From contig JAHJMN010000170.1 in assembly GCA_018821305.1 (NCBI GenBank), positions 1 through 33,104 of the forward strand: a stretch of 33,104 nt of DNA, in the 5' to 3' direction. The position numbers were made by a program, and so were the translations under genes. This DNA is from Myxococcota bacterium (lineage in GTDB: Bacteria > Myxococcota_A > Polyangia > HGW-17). Positions 2,726-33,104 of this stretch are shown in pieces (positions within the stretch are counted from its first letter, which is position 1; every line of letters starts with the position of its first letter). Below the pieces are notes generated by a model. That model saw only the letters and a program-made list of their open reading frames with translations. It searched no databases and was not told the DNA's origin.

Positions 2726-4549
2726 ATGAGAAATATATTTATTTTATTAATTTCAGTTATTACGTTTGCCTGCACAGGTAATACAACCGGCGGGGAAAAA
2801 ACCACGAAAAACAATAAAGTATGCGGCCCGGGAGAAGAAAAAACTAAAGATCCGGATCTCGAAAAAGCCCGTAAAACAGAAGTGGATCCATTTGTTTTGA
2901 AAGCAATTACTTATATTCAAATGGATCAGGCTTTTAATGCTTTTCATACTGAAGTTGCCAGACAAAACTGCCATGAGAATCAATTGAAAATCAGTAAAAT
3001 GATTGGAAAACCCCACTTTGACGACAAAGAGAGCTCTCAGGTTAACTGGTATGCAGCAATTGACAATAAGTGTATGGCATTGACTTTGAACTGTGGCGTT
3101 AATCCCGTAACACTCACTCAGACGAAAACCCAGAACGTTTTCTGTGAGAAATATGCGGTGAAAGCAGGGCAGACAGCAGAAGTTCCTCCGGAATTTTCAA
3201 ATCTGAAAACTGAATACAATGCATTTGTAAAACCTGAAGAAGTAAACATTGCGACACAGACACTTGATGAGCGTTCATTGTCTGCAATGCCTCAGACTTC
3301 CCCTGCAGCATCAGTTCAAAAGGATACGACCTACGATGATTTGAAACATCTGGCTTCAAAATCCGAAGGCAGGAAAACTCTGAAGTTTGATAAGCAAGTA
3401 AAAATATACAAAAATAACCAACTGATGCTTGTCCAAGGTACGGTGTATTTCTTTGAAGATACAGGAGCAGTTTCGAGTATTACTGGTCTTCAAAATACAG
3501 TGACTTACTTCCAGGCTGGGCAGACAATCAATTTCCGGAGCTGGATTTCATTTTCTAAAAAAGGTTCTGTTACTTTCGGATTCGGTTCTAAAGACACGGT
3601 TTTTAAAATTGGGAAATACTCCGTGAAGTACAGCCCGACAAATAAAAGCGGCTATACTGCAAAAATATTCTTTTATGAATCCGGGAATATCGCTTCTATC
3701 CACATCCGGGAAGACCAAACCCTGAAAGTCGGAAATCAAAATATTACTTTTACGCATTATCCCGGTTGTGGGGCGGATTTGGGATTTTACGAAGACGGGA
3801 CTTTCAAATCAGGATATGTTGCCCAGGATACGGTTTTTGCTGGTCTAAAATACAAAAAAGGCAAGGAAATCGTTCTATCAAAGCGTGGAAATCCTATCCT
3901 GAGGGGAGATCATGCAAAAATTGATAAGCCGGCTAAAGGAACCTACAAGACATCGGGCGCAAATAGTTACTTCTATGATGTAAAAAACTACAGCGAATCA
4001 ATTGTGGCGACTTACAATTTTTATATGCTGAAATTTATAAACCCAATGGATCTTAAAAAAGACGGTAAATTATTCCGGGTAAAAGGTCAGGTGCTGTTTT
4101 ACCCTGAGTCCGAAACCATTATGAGCATAACGGAGCTCCTTAATGCACCTGTGGTGGAAGTCGGTGGAAAATCAATTGAGATCCACAAACACGCCTTTTT
4201 TTCAAAGGAAGGAAAACTCCTCAGTGCCAAAGCAGTGAAGGATCAGACCTTTAAGGTGGGGGTGAACACCGTTAGTTATAAAGCTAAAGCAAAATACAGG
4301 GAAGCTTCATTGTCGTTTTACGAGTCCGGTAAATTGAAATCTGTTCAGACAGCCGATAATCACACATTGAAGGTTGGAAGTAAAACAGTCACCTGTGGGC
4401 CAAAATTCAGTTATTACACAATGGATCTTGAATTCCATGAAAACGGAGTTTTAAAAACCTGTTACGCCGCAGCGGATACAAGAATCGGAGGAAAAGTATT
4501 CAAAGCGGGAGAAAAAATCGAATTCACCAATAAAGGTCTTGTAAAATAA
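2726..4549 (+). CDS. Lipoprotein with internally duplicated MORN/YwqK-like beta repeats
   Basis: A 607-residue protein. The N-terminus MRNIFILLISVITFAC is a lipoprotein signal with the lipid cysteine at 16, followed by a Gly/Thr/Lys-rich linker. ATG 2726 is preferred over GTG 2720 because AAAGGGAG lies at the right distance. The body contains short modules such as FYESGNIASI, FYEDGTFKSG, FYESGKLKSV and FHENGVLKTC, each followed by a DxTxKVG-like strand. This pattern is reminiscent of YwqK/MORN repeats. The block at roughly 220-400 is repeated at about 440-605, indicating an internal duplication. It is likely displayed on the envelope; ligand and role are unknown. Confidence 0.75.
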   Translation: MRNIFILLISVITFACTGNTTGGEKTTKNNKVCGPGEEKTKDPDLEKARKTEVDPFVLKAITYIQMDQAFNAFHTEVARQNCHENQLKISKMIGKPHFDDKESSQVNWYAAIDNKCMALTLNCGVNPVTLTQTKTQNVFCEKYAVKAGQTAEVPPEFSNLKTEYNAFVKPEEVNIATQTLDERSLSAMPQTSPAASVQKDTTYDDLKHLASKSEGRKTLKFDKQVKIYKNNQLMLVQGTVYFFEDTGAVSSITGLQNTVTYFQAGQTINFRSWISFSKKGSVTFGFGSKDTVFKIGKYSVKYSPTNKSGYTAKIFFYESGNIASIHIREDQTLKVGNQNITFTHYPGCGADLGFYEDGTFKSGYVAQDTVFAGLKYKKGKEIVLSKRGNPILRGDHAKIDKPAKGTYKTSGANSYFYDVKNYSESIVATYNFYMLKFINPMDLKKDGKLFRVKGQVLFYPESETIMSITELLNAPVVEVGGKSIEIHKHAFFSKEGKLLSAKAVKDQTFKVGVNTVSYKAKAKYREASLSFYESGKLKSVQTADNHTLKVGSKTVTCGPKFSYYTMDLEFHENGVLKTCYAAADTRIGGKVFKAGEKIEFTNKGLVK

Positions 4550-4588
4550 CACCTTAACTCCCATTGACCCAAATACTGAAATTGGGCG

Positions 4589-8260: not shown

Positions 8261-8707
8261 ATGAAACGTTTTTTAGTTTTTATTATTGTGACAAGTCTTT
8301 TCGCCTTCACAGCCGGTTGCGAAGATGACGAACAATCATCCGAAGCCATGTGTGAAATGTTTGAGGAATGCGAACTTCAAGATTATGACGCATGTCTTGT
8401 TGATCGTGGAAGTCTGGCTCTTTCCGACGAGTGCAAGGATGAAATTTTTGCAGCCAGTTGTGAAGACCATGCACTTTATAACCCGCCCTATATGGATACA
8501 TGCTTTGAACCATGCACAATTCAGAGTATTGACTGTGTGGGTGCCCAACTTCACTACTGTACTGGAACTCATCTGATGAAATATGAATGCGCAAGTATCT
8601 GCTACTACCAGATTGGCGGCGTTTATTCAGGTGTTTGCGGTGAAAGAGGACCAAACGGTGAATACTCATCAAACGGCGGCCCCGTCTGCTGGTGCCACGT
8701 TGACTAG
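8261..8707 (+). CDS. Small Cys-rich lipoprotein
   Basis: A 148-residue protein. The start at 8261 follows AAGGGGAG. The signal MKRFLVFIIVTSLFAFTAGC gives lipid cysteine 20, then acidic residues. The mature part has about 14 cysteines with spacings such as CEMFEEC and CWC near the end, suggesting a disulfide-bonded extracytoplasmic domain of unknown type. Its TAG stop codon lies inside the CTAG that flanks the adjacent inverted-repeat element (8708-9207). Confidence 0.75.
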   Translation: MKRFLVFIIVTSLFAFTAGCEDDEQSSEAMCEMFEECELQDYDACLVDRGSLALSDECKDEIFAASCEDHALYNPPYMDTCFEPCTIQSIDCVGAQLHYCTGTHLMKYECASICYYQIGGVYSGVCGERGPNGEYSSNGGPVCWCHVD

Positions 8708-9207
8708 ACCCAATGCTGCTCGGTAGTACCGTATCAATTGATATTGTTAACAAAACTAAACGCAGTTATTAAGGACTTAAGTATTTCAGGGAATCAGAAA
8801 CAGATTCAGGAACAGGCAATCAGGGGTCATTTATATTCAGCAAAGCATTACTTTATAAAGAATTACACACTCATGTGTTGGCTTTTTAGTCAAGGGCGAC
8901 GGGCAATTTTGCCCGGAACCCGCACGTCATGAAATGACACCATCTTCAATAGCCAGGGGTGAGGGATGCAGAGCATCTGAACCCCTGGTCAAAATGCGCC
9001 AAAACCACAAGCCATGTAATGGCGGCCCAGTCAATAAACAAATTAAATCATTCCTTTAAAGTAAACGCCCTGCTCCTGACTGCTTGCATTCCGCTGTGCG
9101 AAATTGCGTGCCTGTTTTCCTGAATTCCTGTCTGCCTGTAATTATTTTACAAGATTGTATTTATTGACTAATTTTCTCGGAAGTTCACTATCCGAACAGC
9201 ATTGGGT
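8708..9207. mobile_element. 500-bp MITE-like element B1 flanked by CTAG
   Basis: ACCCAATGCTGCTCGG (8708-8723) is matched by the inverted copy CCGAACAGCATTGGGT (9192-9207), 15 of 16 bases. CTAG sits directly outside both ends (8704-8707 and 9208-9211), as a 4-bp target duplication would. There is no transposase gene. A CAGG/AATCAG-rich arm (8784-8828) and a CCTG-rich arm (about 9068-9140) are partly complementary, and similar arms occur in the 237-bp and 205-bp elements at 32299 and 25037. The extra length here is a central cassette of perfect hairpins. The CTAG target is typical of IS5-type transposases; no helper element is in the window. The element fills most of the gap between two convergent genes. 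Confidence 0.7.
8900..9023 (+). ncRNA. Candidate structured RNA: four consecutive perfect hairpins inside element B1
   Basis: Four stems follow one another. CGGGCAA (8900-8906) pairs with 8909-8915. GTCAT (8926-8930) pairs with 8934-8938. CCAGGGGT (8953-8960) pairs with ACCCCTGG (8981-8988), enclosing GATGC (8965-8969) paired with 8973-8977. GCCAT (9011-9015) pairs with 9019-9023. The third stem is interrupted by GAG opposite TGA, compatible with tandem G-A pairs as in kink turns. The strand is arbitrary because stems pair on either; plus is given because the G-A geometry reads well there. No known class was recognised. Confidence 0.35.
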
Positions 9208-9211
9208 CTAG

Positions 9212-27499: not shown

Positions 27500-29218
27500 T
27501 TATTCGACGGTGCTGAAGGTGATTGAACTTATTCCCCCGGCATAGATGGTGGTTGTGCTGACAGCGGGAGCCGGAGCTTCGCTCAAAAAATCATTTCCGG
27601 TGTTGGGATTTACGTCAAAACGCTCGAAATTTGAACCAGTTATGATGAGCCCAAGACGCCATCCGGCAGGGAAAGCATAGCCGTGGTGGTTCACTGCTTT
27701 GATATTTACCGTATAGAGTTGAGCCGCAGTCAGAAGGGAGGGAGTGGAATTGGAATCCCTCAGTTTGAGTCGCTGGATGCCTTCAGCTATGAGGAGATGA
27801 CGTCCTTGCGGATCCACAGCGGTGATTCTTACGGCGATATCTGTATCCGGTACATCGGTCTCAATTTCCAGGGTAACAACTACTTCACCACCAACAATAA
27901 AACCCGGCGCTACTGAAGATTCGTAAACGAGACTGTCTGACCGCGCAATGATTTCATCCAGATACTGAGGTCCGTGATGGTAGTTACCCATGAGGGTCTG
28001 TCCCCCGATGGTAGGCGACGGATCATCGGGGTCTGAGCTGAATACACGATCGGTTTCTGTCGTTGGAGCCTCATCCGAAAGGGTGTTTTCCCTCAGGTAC
28101 ACGACTTGAGTATTTACCGTTGGCGGCCAGGTATCAGAGAACCTTGGTGTCGTTTCGTTGTCGACGATGTACTCTACTTTTTGTGCTTGAGACTCACCGA
28201 TTTCGCGTAAATGAACATTAAAGAACGCGAGGGAGCGCTCCTGAATGATTTTACTGCTATCCACGTACTTCTTTTCCTGATCCGTAAGTGGTCTTCCCAT
28301 GGAGGTTTCGCCTCCAGTAGCCTGATGAATCCATGGTCCGATTAAAAGTTGGTGTTTGTCCCGAACTGCTTGTGCAGATTGTGTACGTAAAGACAGCCAG
28401 TCGCCTATTCCACCTTTATTATTCAGGTCATACCAGCCGGCAACCACAAGGGATGGTGCTTCCACTTTTGTATAACTGTACTGACCTTCCAGCCAGGCCC
28501 ACAGCGTATCACGGTATGGGTGGGCTTCGTACACGGACGCGGAAACGCCGTAATACATTTCCATGAAGTTGATGTACTCCCGACGTAAAACTCCCCCGGG
28601 GTAATGCTCTTCCCAGGTCTGATTCATGCCACAGAAAATTGGCACCATGGCTTTGAGTCCTGATGGTTTAATCTGGGCTGTCTGATATTGAATCTTACAC
28701 AGAGCACTGACTCCCCAGGTTCCAACCTTCCCATCGGACCAGTCCTGAGCTGTTATCCAATCTACAGCATCGGCACCGTCGTAGCCAAGATCCCGATCAT
28801 TACTCACGGGAACGCCTGCGGAACCGAAGAATCCTCGCCAGTCCATTACTACAAAATTGTAGTCCCGGCTATCAAACAGTGGTTCACCACCAAAGAGAAA
28901 CCAGATGCTACGGGCATTTTCCTTGTTGTAGGGAGTCTGGATTAATATTGTAGGTAACCGGCAGTCAGGATTTAAAGGCTTACGGACGAAGGCGCTGAGT
29001 TCATAACCGTCGCTCGTGGGAATCATGACATCTGTGAAGGCATGCTCGGAGCAGTCATCAGACCCTCCGTCGGCATCGGGGCCCGCATCATTATTTATAT
29101 TATTAGAATTGTTAGAATTATTCGAATTGTTCAAATTGTTGTTGTTTTCCGCGCTGGACGTATCATCGCAGCCCGAAAACGCAAGGAAAAGCACGGTAAA
29201 TATAATAAAAAGTTTCAT
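27500..29218 (-). CDS. CocE/NonD-type (peptidase S15) alpha/beta-hydrolase lipoprotein
   Basis: A 572-residue protein. ATG 29218 is preceded by GAGGTG. The signal ends FSGC (lipid cysteine 17), then an Asn-rich linker (25-43) and DAGPDADGG. The S15 alpha/beta-hydrolase domain has TPYNKE and VVMDWRGFFGSAG (oxyanion region). The expected triad is Ser171 (GTWGVSAL), Asp264 (AGWYDLNN) and His298 (IGPWIHQA). A C-terminal PepX-C jelly roll follows. The family includes X-Pro dipeptidyl-peptidases and cocaine esterase-type acylases; the substrate is unknown. The nucleophile elbow GVSAL lacks the usual GxSYxG tyrosine. Its 5' end is tandemly duplicated upstream. Confidence 0.87.
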   Translation of the reverse strand: MKLFIIFTVLFLAFSGCDDTSSAENNNNLNNSNNSNNSNNINNDAGPDADGGSDDCSEHAFTDVMIPTSDGYELSAFVRKPLNPDCRLPTILIQTPYNKENARSIWFLFGGEPLFDSRDYNFVVMDWRGFFGSAGVPVSNDRDLGYDGADAVDWITAQDWSDGKVGTWGVSALCKIQYQTAQIKPSGLKAMVPIFCGMNQTWEEHYPGGVLRREYINFMEMYYGVSASVYEAHPYRDTLWAWLEGQYSYTKVEAPSLVVAGWYDLNNKGGIGDWLSLRTQSAQAVRDKHQLLIGPWIHQATGGETSMGRPLTDQEKKYVDSSKIIQERSLAFFNVHLREIGESQAQKVEYIVDNETTPRFSDTWPPTVNTQVVYLRENTLSDEAPTTETDRVFSSDPDDPSPTIGGQTLMGNYHHGPQYLDEIIARSDSLVYESSVAPGFIVGGEVVVTLEIETDVPDTDIAVRITAVDPQGRHLLIAEGIQRLKLRDSNSTPSLLTAAQLYTVNIKAVNHHGYAFPAGWRLGLIITGSNFERFDVNPNTGNDFLSEAPAPAVSTTTIYAGGISSITFSTVE

Positions 29219-29325
29219 GAGTTTCACCTCTTGTTGTTGTTTTCCGCGCTGGACGTATCATCGCAGCCCGAAAACGCAAGGAAAAGCACGGTAAATATAA
29301 TAAAAAGTTTCATGAGTTTCACCTC
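29136..29325. repeat. Exact 95-bp tandem duplication of a gene 5' end
   Basis: 29136-29230 and 29231-29325 are identical base for base, with one further base of match at 29231/29326. The unit spans the ribosome-binding site, start codon and first 24 or so codons of the CocE-type gene. Identity over 95 bases with no substitutions implies a recent event, or an assembly artefact. Confidence 0.92.
29224..29313 (-). CDS. 29-residue mini-lipoprotein created by the tandem duplication
   Basis: The upstream copy of the duplication keeps the ribosome-binding site, ATG, signal peptide (MKLFIIFTVLFLAFSGC) and first residues DDTSSAENNN. Because 95 is not a multiple of three, it then shifts to KR and a TGA stop. 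The stop lies five bases before the ATG of the full-length gene and overlaps its ribosome-binding site, so the two should be translationally coupled. The product would be a complete lipoprotein signal with a 13-residue mature peptide. It may be translated, but no function need follow. Confidence 0.5.
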   Translation of the reverse strand: MKLFIIFTVLFLAFSGCDDTSSAENNNKR

Positions 29326-29329
29326 TGAC

Positions 29330-31906
29330 TCATTCAATATTCGTGCACATTATCGGACCTGCGGAAGAAGAGTTGTTGGAATCACTGCATTCTTCAAGCA
29401 CGGCTCCTTCGTTTACTACGGCGGTGAATGTCATATCCACACCGGTTTCCACGTTTTCATATACGGTGTTTACGCGCTCCCAGCCTCCCGGTAGAATTAT
29501 TCCCGTTGTCAGAACGGTTTCAATCAGTTCCGGGGGATCCACATCGGTGCGGTAGAACGAAACTGTCGCTCCCGTAGCGGCGCCGGCACTTCCGTTGTTG
29601 AAAATCACCGCACTCAGATTCACCGTATCCGGGCATCGAGCCGCAGCCTGCAGTGTCGCCATGAGATCCGGAACGGGGAAAAGGGCTCCTCCCTGAACAT
29701 TCTGCCGATAGTTGTTATATGTGAGCCAGGAGTGTTCTTCATAAAGAGGAACGTCCCACAGGCCGCTGGCAAAGGAAATATTCGTCACGTGGTAATTGAA
29801 CTGGTTCCAAACGGGGCGTGTGCGAACCCAGCGATCATTTGCATCACCGTAAACGCGAACTCCCATTGTTCCGCCGGGATACTGACATGTGCCCGCCGCA
29901 TCACACACGTAATCTCCAGTGCAGGTGCCTCCGGGGCCACCTGCACATGGATCACCAGGAGTGCAGTCCGTGAGGGCGCAGAGAGTCTCTGCAGGAATAC
30001 CTGCAGCTTTCCATGCTGCTCGGCAATTAAGATAAGTAACAGCATATTTATTTGAAACAATAATCATTTCGGCGTTACCATCGCCATCCACGTCCGCCAC
30101 CAGTGGATACTCAGCTAAAGTTCCTGTGGATGATGGAATCATTGGAGAAACGAGTTCAGCTCCCGTCAGACCGTCGTAAATATGGAAGAAACATTCATCA
30201 TTGTATAATACTTCGGCGGCACCATCTCCCTGGAAGTCGAAAACCGAGGAGCCCGTCATGGATGAACTGAGGTCCTGAGTTGGGGTTTCCCATAAAATGA
30301 GATCCGTCCGGCCACTGTTGCACAGGCCTCCTGTACGCAGGGGTGGATCATAGCAGTCAGGATCGTAAACAACATAAGCTGCTCTTCCTGCTGTGCTGAT
30401 TTCCGGAAGGCCGTCTCCGTCAAAATCTGCAACGGTGGGGGCTCCTCCGTTTCCAGTTCCTGGAATTGGAACAGTCACGTCTGCCAGAGTTCCTCCGGGG
30501 CCGATTAGAACCTGCCCCGTCTGACCGTCCATGAGGTAGAAATTATTGTAAATATTCACAACTTCCGGGCCTGAAATATCCGGAATGATGTCAGCAACGG
30601 CAACAAAACTCGATGACACAGCATTATTTGTGGTCCAGAAGGGCACTCCCCCGAGGACTGCGGGGTCAATGGTAATTGCGTGAGCCGCATCAACAACTTC
30701 AAGTTTTCCATCGGTGTTTAAATCCGCAATTGCAGTATTTTTTCCACACTCTGATGAATTAACAAAATCCAGGGCAGGGTTTGAGATATCTCTGCCGTTC
30801 ATGACATGGCAGGCAATTATTACATCGGGTATACCATCGTGGTCCACATCTGCCACGGAAGGCCCGCCGTGAATGTGGCGCATACTACCACCGGAAAAAC
30901 GTGCTCCCGTGCATGATGGATATAAATTGCGGTCGCAGACGTCGCCGATACCGTCATTATCTGCGATGCGCACACCACCTCCCTGAACATTGTATACAAT
31001 TTCAAGGCCGGGATCATCGTCAAAATTGGCCAGAGCTACGGACGCACCACCGAAGGGTTTGGGTGCTGTGGGGTCCTGATCCGAAGGAATGGTGAATAAA
31101 ATTTCTCCGCCTCCGGCACCGTCACCGGCACCGTTTAACACAACAATTATTGAATCGGAGTCGTAGAGATTCAGATGGAAAAGTACAACTACCACATCGG
31201 GAATACCATCACCGTTCACATCGCCGATGATTGGAGAGGCCATGGAATCAGTATATTCCTTCCCGAGATAACTTGTGCCCCTCCAGTACCACTCCAGGAC
31301 TGGTTCTATTGCTGTAAAATTTGGTTCGCCCTGACAAAGCACACCTTCCGGCAGGGGAAGACATATATTCATGTTAAGTTCACAGTACCACTCATCACTA
31401 GGACAGTCGTAATTATCCATGCAGAAGGAGCCCGGCTGAACACACTCGTTATTCAAGCACAAACGCCCGAAAGGACAACAGATGTCCAGATTTTCCCCAC
31501 ACAGAGGGTTATTTGTTCCGCAATCTGCGGCGCATTGGACGCCATCAAGGCATATCTGCCCGGCATTGCAGCAATCCACAAGGTTTTCCCCGCATCTCAG
31601 TGTCTCGCAAACCGGAAGACACTGCATGTTATTTACGCACTCTTCCCCTTCGCCGCAGCATACGCCACGACAACGCTCCTGAGGGCAAATGGGCTCGCAG
31701 GTGCCGAAAATGCACTCCTGTTCGTCAGTACAGCAGTTTACCCCGCATACATTCTGAACGGGACAGTCACCGCCGTCGCCATCGGGACCTGCGTCATTGT
31801 TGGAATTGTTGGAATTATTTAAAATACCCGCTTCTCCACTGCAGCCCGAAAACCCAAGGAAAAGCAAAGTCATAATGAATGCAAAAAAAGGAACAGTTTT
31901 CTTCAT
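29330..31906 (-). CDS. FG-GAP/VCBS beta-propeller lipoprotein with Cys-rich and CARDB-like domains
   Basis: An 858-residue protein with AGAGGT nine bases upstream. The signal ends FSGC (lipid cysteine 22), then an Asn/Asp/Gly linker. Residues about 48-190 are Cys-rich, with repeated CG..CC...C and ECxxxxC units. Residues about 200-640 hold at least six FG-GAP repeats with calcium-type DxDxDG loops (GDVNGDGIPDVVV, ADVDHDGIPDVII, ADFDGDGLPEIST, ADVDGDGNAEMII), an integrin-like propeller. Residues about 740-850 resemble a CARDB adhesion domain (DTVNLSAVIFNNGSAGA). It probably has an adhesion or surface role. Its stop lies 17 bases before the mini-lipoprotein, so it may head an operon with the CocE-type gene. 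Confidence 0.87.
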   Translation of the reverse strand: MKKTVPFFAFIMTLLFLGFSGCSGEAGILNNSNNSNNDAGPDGDGGDCPVQNVCGVNCCTDEQECIFGTCEPICPQERCRGVCCGEGEECVNNMQCLPVCETLRCGENLVDCCNAGQICLDGVQCAADCGTNNPLCGENLDICCPFGRLCLNNECVQPGSFCMDNYDCPSDEWYCELNMNICLPLPEGVLCQGEPNFTAIEPVLEWYWRGTSYLGKEYTDSMASPIIGDVNGDGIPDVVVVLFHLNLYDSDSIIVVLNGAGDGAGGGEILFTIPSDQDPTAPKPFGGASVALANFDDDPGLEIVYNVQGGGVRIADNDGIGDVCDRNLYPSCTGARFSGGSMRHIHGGPSVADVDHDGIPDVIIACHVMNGRDISNPALDFVNSSECGKNTAIADLNTDGKLEVVDAAHAITIDPAVLGGVPFWTTNNAVSSSFVAVADIIPDISGPEVVNIYNNFYLMDGQTGQVLIGPGGTLADVTVPIPGTGNGGAPTVADFDGDGLPEISTAGRAAYVVYDPDCYDPPLRTGGLCNSGRTDLILWETPTQDLSSSMTGSSVFDFQGDGAAEVLYNDECFFHIYDGLTGAELVSPMIPSSTGTLAEYPLVADVDGDGNAEMIIVSNKYAVTYLNCRAAWKAAGIPAETLCALTDCTPGDPCAGGPGGTCTGDYVCDAAGTCQYPGGTMGVRVYGDANDRWVRTRPVWNQFNYHVTNISFASGLWDVPLYEEHSWLTYNNYRQNVQGGALFPVPDLMATLQAAARCPDTVNLSAVIFNNGSAGAATGATVSFYRTDVDPPELIETVLTTGIILPGGWERVNTVYENVETGVDMTFTAVVNEGAVLEECSDSNNSSSAGPIMCTNIE

Positions 31907-32298
31907 GGTAATAACCTCTAAAGCGTTTTTTGCGAAGCAAAAAACGCGGTCCTCAAAAGCAAAAAACGCGGGCCTCTCTATCCTGAAACCCTGAAATTCA
32001 TTTCAGATTCAGGATATGAACCCGAATAGAGTATCCCATGATAACGGAACCATTGCAAACAGGAAAAATAGAAGGGAATATAAAAAAGATTGAATCCCCG
32101 GGGGTAACTGAACTGAGGATTCAGTTAATAGGAGAGAAAAGGTGAGGGAGGCCCCCGGTGATTCAGGTTTCACATTGACAATAATTCCGCAATACAGTCA
32201 AGACTGAAAATCAAAAAAAGAACACAGGCGGAGGCAGCAACGACCCAGACATCTTTTAGAGTAATAAAAAGTCGGAGTCGAATCCCGAAAATTGCTAG
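31907..32298. other. Intergenic region with leader hairpins and a startless hydrophobic frame
   Basis: No complete gene. Near the FG-GAP gene, GCGTTTTTTGC (31923-31933) pairs with GCAAAAAACGC at 31937-31947, and the latter arm recurs at 31959-31969. AACTGAA (32106-32112) pairs with 32120-32126. On the minus strand a stop-free frame (32173-32361) without ATG, GTG or early TTG start encodes a membrane-helix-like stretch and ends with TGA at 32170-32172; it may be a gene remnant. Confidence 0.45.
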
Positions 32299-32535
32299 AC
32301 CGCTTGCGTAGTAAAAGGATCGAAATCTAATATTTGAATATTTTATTCCATTTTTGTAATTTTACTTTGATGTTAAATGTTTATGACCTGATCCTGTTCC
32401 TGTTTGCCTGACTACCTGTGTCCCTGTTTAAAATTTCAGGGAACAGGAAATCAGTAGCAGGAACAGGACAATCAGGGTCTTTCTCCTGAAGCCTTTCTTT
32501 AGAATAACTCACAATCGTATTACTCCCCAAGCGGT
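32299..32535. mobile_element. 237-bp MITE-like element B3 flanked by CTAG
   Basis: ACCGCTTGCGTAGTAA (32299-32314) and the inverted TTACTCCCCAAGCGGT (32520-32535) match at 14 of 16 bases. CTAG is present on both sides (32295-32298, 32536-32539). The interior has a CCTG-rich arm (32388-32428) and a CAGG-rich arm (32434-32478) that are largely complementary around an AT-rich loop, so the whole element can form one long hairpin. No ORF of its own. It lies 11 bases beyond the stop of the next gene. Confidence 0.7.
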
Positions 32536-32550
32536 CTAGAAGTTACAACG

Positions 32551-33046: not shown

Positions 33047-33104
33047 TATTACTAGTGGCCTGTTAGGATTTTTAATAAAATCCTTCGCGAAGCGAATTAC
33101 AGGA
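33047..33104 (+). repeat. Hairpin repeat family A, copy A5, cut by the window end
   Basis: TATTACTAGTGGCCTGTTAG, stem AGGATTTT/AAAATCCT (33065-33072/33077-33084, loop TAAT), CTTCGCGAAG and AATTACAGGA, where the window stops. It matches copy A1 at 2-67 except in the stem arms. Confidence 0.8.

Follow-up and report, generated by a model that had tools for sequence, protein, structure and literature searches.

A four-hairpin cassette in the window, the 33,104-nucleotide stretch of Myxococcota DNA analysed here, is very probably (a probability of about 0.85, judged from sequence comparison) a composite REP-like target of subclass-1.2 TnpA-Y1 transposases in single-stranded DNA, riding in a mini-transposon with TA ends. 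The cassette belongs to a dispersed repeat family, termed F1, whose core consists of a hairpin (P2), a tetranucleotide tag at the 5' foot of a long imperfect hairpin (P3), and a further hairpin with a GNA loop (P4). By sequence, the hairpins, their dispersal, the common plan and its head-on arrangement around subclass-1.2 genes elsewhere are all evident. This P2–NTAG–P3–P4 plan brackets subclass-1.2 genes both in other genomes of this class and in Bacteroidota, suggesting that F1 is likewise a single-stranded transposase target. In all likelihood the cassette is DNA that such a transposase acts on, carried along as a passenger, rather than a gene for a new RNA.

The carrier element

The cassette lies in a MITE-like element delimited as follows:

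8705–9210, no strand assigned: MITE-like non-autonomous inverted-repeat element, 506 bp including the TA at both ends
8705–8718, plus strand: left terminal inverted repeat (TIR) TAGACCCAATGCTG, perfect, 14 bp
9197–9210, minus strand: right TIR, a perfect 14-bp match to TAGACCCAATGCTG

The sequence-only reading of this DNA had recognised the inverted-repeat element but drawn it too short; its ends are the perfect 14-bp TIRs with TA. The arms of the carrier are long, partly complementary and CAGG-rich. Its proposed kinship with the element B3 (about 32295–32540) holds for the CAGG-type arms only, as B3 has ends of its own (TAGACCGCTTGCG...). A MITE-like nature, in contrast, was borne out by the perfect TIRs, the TA ends and the dispersed relatives. 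In the host genome (216 contigs, 5.22 Mb) the TIR core TAGACCCAATGCT has 62 exact copies, against none for the reversed control, and relatives of the carrier occur at 56 places. Short TIRs, a target duplication, many copies and the lack of a transposase gene are the marks by which a MITE is recognised, and the carrier agrees with them in its TIRs, TA ends and copy number; the ORF list contains no frame of at least 80 aa within 8754–9210. The TA at the ends would represent a target duplication, no empty site having been seen. Among the 62 exact cores of this draft assembly there was no obvious TIR pair 1–2 kb apart that could mark an autonomous partner. The carrier is presumably comparable to TA-targeting MITEs (Correia-like, related to IS630/Tc1-mariner). 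It resembles them in being gene-free with short TIRs that start at TA, but differs in holding the cassette as an independent module.

The cassette is missing from some other elements that have these TIRs and arms; one of them, C140, aligns to the carrier at element positions 6–56, 354–381 and 412–516, while the cassette part remains unaligned. The fold of the whole element exceeds that of shuffled sequences on both strands (z=-5.9 on plus, -8.2 on minus).

Two further repeats were observed in the window. Positions 2–59 and 33047–33104 are 93% identical; the contig therefore starts and ends in the same repeat, and at both edges of the window the assembly broke off at a MITE. A perfect 95-bp tandem duplication at 29136–29325 extends over the start of a minus-strand gene, and a piece of it recurs at 31841–31866.

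Structure of the cassette

The cassette comprises:

8894–9023, plus strand: F1 cassette core of four hairpins, a repeated module with 66 covariance-model matches in its own genome
8894–8921, plus strand: P1 hairpin with a tandem G-A internal loop, absent from other families
8926–8938, plus strand: P2 hairpin GTCAT-GAA-ATGAC, invariant in F1
8949–8952, plus strand: tag ATAG, immediately 5' of P3; other F1 copies have GTAG and the family F2 has TTAG
8953–8988, plus strand: P3, a long imperfect hairpin, CCAGGGGT-GAG-GGATGC..GCATCT-GA-ACCCCTGG
9011–9023, plus strand: P4 hairpin GCCAT-GTA-ATGGC, its GNA loop being GTA, GAA or GCA among copies

The core plan of F1 is P2, then 12–15 nt ending in (A/G)TAG, P3, about 22 nt, and P4 with its GNA loop. 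The four hairpins described from sequence alone are real, but the structured part spans about 130 nt (8894–9023) and not about 230. An internal loop compatible with tandem G-A pairs had been read in the third hairpin, and it is present in P3 as GAG/GA; other copies have AAA/GCG at this place and one is fully paired. The position and short stem of P2 are common to F1 and to the transposase-flanking elements described below. By analogy with the guides of REP and IS200 elements (PMC8266576), the ATAG tag may be a guide-like tetranucleotide.

Against dinucleotide shuffles the cassette folds unusually well, whether treated as RNA (z=-4.0, 0 of 200 shuffles as good) or as DNA (z=-3.3, 1 of 200). Within the family F1 there is only weak covariation, since P2, P4 and the lower part of P3 are nearly invariant. 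The search for compensatory changes suggested by the sequence-only reading accordingly gave little inside the family except in P1, an F1 helix with pairs exchanged on both sides (a GGTT/AACC variant occurs in C116). With so little variation available within F1, its structure was judged instead by comparison between families.

A dispersed repeat family

A covariance model built from 17 copies (A1/R1) gave the 66 matches in the host genome. These include a few opposite-strand shadows and the split halves of interrupted copies, and correspond to roughly 50–60 copies, intact and fragmentary. Such a number excludes the possibility that the cassette is part of ordinary unique sequence. Copies are found within the arms of this carrier and in (CAGGGA)n-like arrays; others adjoin further repeats or stand by themselves. 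Across these unrelated contexts the conserved core is the same and extends over all four hairpins, P1 through P4. F1 thus often occurs away from these MITE arms, and the cassette does not define this MITE. Since copies occur with and without the arms, and elements without the cassette exist too, the earlier view of the cassette as a distinct structured module stands. Of 23 copies checked, 16 lie clear of any ORF of at least 100 aa, and the copy in the window lies between convergent genes.

The family appears confined to its host. The model, applied to 12 further genomes of the order, one of them of the same genus, found nothing, and blastn with the cassette in 58 relatives returned its own genome only. 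The pattern GTCATGAAATGAC..TAGCCAG was absent from IMG/VR; its two occurrences in GTDB, in Shewanella and a MAG, did not fit the model and were set aside as chance.

Many F1 copies are truncated or interrupted, and the assembly breaks up at these repeats. Nine copies or fragments share, in whole or in part, an extra stretch of about 90 nt with two hairpins, at a single site between P2 and P3 (L104:1568-1792, L071:3205-3430, L106:1505-1730, L070, L073, L103, L109, L110 and L111); this may be an inserted element or a longer ancestral form. In L058 (G000:C196:11719-12002) a different MITE (GTTCGTGTCCGG...CAGGACAGTAACT), with the short direct repeat TCAATAG, separates P2 from P3 of the F1 copy. 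A subgroup (L073, L075, L061, L064, L067, L099 and L100) sits in simple arrays of CAGGGA type, behind GATGGATCGATTCTTATTCTCATTCTTTT, and mostly has P3 internal loops of AA/GC type, like E. coli REPs. The P3 of L065 (end of G000:C91, minus strand) resembles a chimera, with an F2 left half AGCGAAGGGATCAAAGATGCC and an F1 right half GCATCCGAACCCCTGG, which suggests exchange between the two families.

Resident Y1 transposases and their flanking elements

P3 and the (A/G)TAG that precedes it are reminiscent of a REP, which prompted a search for Y1 transposases. The host genome has three Y1_Tnp genes, on contigs C131, C8 and C84, encoding proteins of 156, 142 and 142 aa respectively. The C131 gene lies at L151:2411-2881 and the C84 gene at L150:3814-4242. 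All three proteins have DHIH, WQ and Y---Q--HH (YIQNQEVHH, YIEKQEIHH and YIEKQELHH) and thereby match TnpA-Y1 subclass 1.2, defined by DH[IV]H, WQ, Y---Q--HH and a length of about 148 aa (PMC6006769). They exceed the NCBIfam IS200 cut-off (NF033573) but reach only 24.6, 23.4 and 23.1 bits with REP_Tyr_transpos, where the cut-off is 80; by this score, and with Y---Q--HH in place of Y---NP, they fall outside class-2 TnpA-REP, a point against a REP-like target. On inspection, no tnpB was noticed beside them.

At the C131 gene an F1 copy lies 222 bp upstream, pointing away from the gene, and a copy of F2 about 700 bp downstream; F2 follows the plan P2–TTAG–P3–P4 on different stems. By our own estimate, one of the 66 F1 copies would fall this close to a given gene with a chance of about 1%. 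No transposase gene was found with F1 on both sides, which weighs against F1 as its target. Inverted copies of a further family, F3 (43 BLAST hits), stand on both sides of the C8 and C84 genes; its layout is a hairpin, CCTTTGGATAG, a hairpin, a C-rich linker and a long hairpin. At the C8 locus (L149, G000:C8:10500-15060, about 2960–4561) a CRISPR array with a 36-nt repeat ATTTCCGCTTCTGAAAAGAAGCGGCTCCATTGAAGC, adjoining a Csb1-type cas gene (Cas_GSU0053), is interrupted by the subclass-1.2 gene and its F3 elements. One repeat–spacer unit containing F3 is duplicated there.

The same plan in other genomes

Of 317 genomes of the class, 12 encode homologues of the C131 protein. Among the subclass-1.2 loci sampled, nine have inverted flanks at E<1e-8. 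The plan was sought with a strict descriptor: a P2 stem of at least 5, 8–15 nt ending in [TC]AG, a P3 stem of at least 7, and a P4 with a GNA loop. This replaced a looser first descriptor that gave a threefold excess over shuffles. The strict form gave 12 hits in 16 transposase loci (the hit in L210 being a false match). In 13 control loci of matching total length there was no hit, and shuffles gave 0.37. The descriptor itself partly prescribes the GNA loop and the spacing ranges; the control and shuffle counts are the fair measure of this effect. In the window the descriptor has a single hit, at 8926–9023, and none in shuffles.

Elements of the same plan flank the Y1 genes of the F3 loci and of L200, L203, L204, L211 and L214; in L200, L203, L204 and L211 the element stands head-on on both sides of the gene. 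In the relative G006 the transposase is bracketed by elements of another hairpin family, F4, which has 15 hits in that genome. Of their stem pairs, 9 of 21 are changed on both sides, and the covariation score is 0.325 against 0.129 in shuffles (0 of 500 shuffles as high).

The plan extends beyond the phylum. In Persicobacter sp. JZB09 (Bacteroidota) a P2–NTAG–P3–P4 element, ACCCC-AAA-GGGGT..TTAG-CGATGGGT..ACCCATCG..AACCCTGAAGGGGTT, and a partner with ATAG bracket a Y1 gene; the element occurs at 10 places in the strain's replicons. The descriptor was tuned after some of the flanks had been seen, and the Persicobacter locus, alone in being found afterwards, is the independent test. A subclass-1.2 gene on the Bernardetia plasmid NZ_CP147018 (also Bacteroidota) is flanked instead by another repeat, the recurring palindrome (A)GCTGCGTAGCTGCGTAATATTTGTAG, which stands in opposite orientations on the two sides. 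No relatives of subclass 1.2 were found in viral contigs.

Between families the stems are wholly different, while the distance from P2 to the tag (11–15 nt), that from P3 to P4 (21–26 nt) and the GNA loop of P4 are constant. That spacing and loop are kept on differing stems is the strongest evidence of selection on the structure itself.

Comparison with known systems

F1 shares several features with the REPs and REPtrons of class-2 TnpA-REP (RAYT; E. coli Y/Z REPs). It is dispersed and mostly intergenic, and elements related to it bracket a Y1 transposase gene, F1 itself standing beside one such gene as a single upstream copy. A GTAG-like tetranucleotide stands at the 5' foot of its imperfect hairpin, as in the GTAG superfamily, the ATAG majority being a relaxed form, and some copies have an internal mismatch of the AA-GC type of E. 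coli REPs (PMC8266576). However, a REP is a single palindrome of 20–40 nt, whereas F1 is a unit of 98–130 nt with three to four hairpins conserved together; the tags of F1-type elements are ATAG, GTAG, TTAG or NCAG; and these elements go with subclass 1.2 (Y---Q--HH) and not with class-2 TnpA-REP (Y---NP). The three resident genes share the signature and low copy number of subclass 1.2, for which Quentin et al. 2018 list no REP (PMC6006769), but differ in being bracketed by dispersed three-hairpin elements.

IS200/IS605 and their non-autonomous derivatives likewise combine an HUH Y1 transposase with single-stranded hairpins and guide tetranucleotides; the flanking elements here differ in being inverted on both sides and dispersed alone in large numbers. 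TIRtrons (TIRYT) are also similar. According to Di Nocera et al. 2013 (PMC3733652), their Y1 genes, mostly of subclass 2.1, have long inverted-repeat flanks, some of them dispersed, but the text consulted makes no mention of a three-hairpin plan with NTAG.

Alternative explanations

The sequence-only reading took the cassette for a new RNA in an RNA-carrying MITE, possibly related to HEARO or omega RNAs. A MITE-borne structured non-coding RNA acting in trans would account for the stable RNA fold (z=-4.0), the G-U wobbles at several stem positions, the tandem G-A internal loops, and the extra two-hairpin domain at one fixed site in some copies. G-T pairs are, however, reported in REP stems too (PMC3733652), and many F1 copies are truncated or interrupted. 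Searches of Rfam with the window and the element, at the gathering threshold and at E<=10, gave no relevant match to any covariance model, HEARO included. Together with the weak covariation in F1 and the occurrence of the same plan, on unrelated stems, around Y1 genes, this makes an RNA improbable.

A role as a transcription terminator or mRNA-stabilising element kept at gene ends is very unlikely. The window copy does lie between convergent genes, the 16 of 23 copies outside ORFs of at least 100 aa point the same way, and REPs can take such side roles (PMC3733652). Yet no T-run follows P4, F1 occurs in both orientations relative to genes, copies lie within MITE arms and repeat arrays, and the fixed P2–tag–P3–P4 spacing around transposase genes would be left unexplained. 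That spacing and position beside Y1 genes in other genomes also speak against a recombination site of some other single-strand system, attC-like or an unrelated IS-end fragment, which we regard as highly implausible even though repeated hairpin sites part unrelated genes on C133, C107 and C108. An integron array on these contigs was rejected: ordinary genes lie between the copies, at spacings of kilobases, unlike integron cassettes.

Proposed mechanism and implications

In REP and IS200/IS605 systems the Y1 transposase binds a folded hairpin on a single strand, and cleavage is guided by a tetranucleotide at the hairpin foot (PMC8266576). For F1 as a transposase target, we infer binding, cleavage and movement by TnpA; any of the three resident transposases may serve it. 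Once the plus strand is exposed as single-stranded DNA, as happens in replication for instance, P2, P3 and P4 would fold and be recognised by TnpA-Y1. P3 and its NTAG tag would form the core contact, with (A/G)TAG at the foot as guide, while P2 and P4 would provide further contacts. Cleavage and rejoining nearby by the transposase would then spread F1 copies between genes. The copy in the window could also be moved passively by its TA-ended host MITE.

More generally, and with somewhat less assurance, we favour a model in which the subclass-1.2 Y1 transposases as a class act on composite three-hairpin REPs (P2, P3 with its NTAG guide, and P4 with a GNA loop), with genome-specific amplification of families and hitch-hiking in TA mini-transposons. 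The partnership of a REP with a Y1 transposase is of a known kind; what appears to be new is a REP composed of three hairpins, and the link of such a REP to subclass 1.2. No later description of subclass-1.2 REPs was found in the open literature, a search that leaves subscription journals and preprints largely outside.

Subclass 1.2 was reported in 2018 as close to IS200, with neither a REP nor IS features, so that its substrate was an open question. The comparison also carries a caution, in that compensated multi-hairpin repeats which emerge from genome scans need not be RNAs. If the present reading is true, the substrate of subclass 1.2 would be recognisable from sequence across at least two phyla, and would be larger and more elaborate than known REPs.
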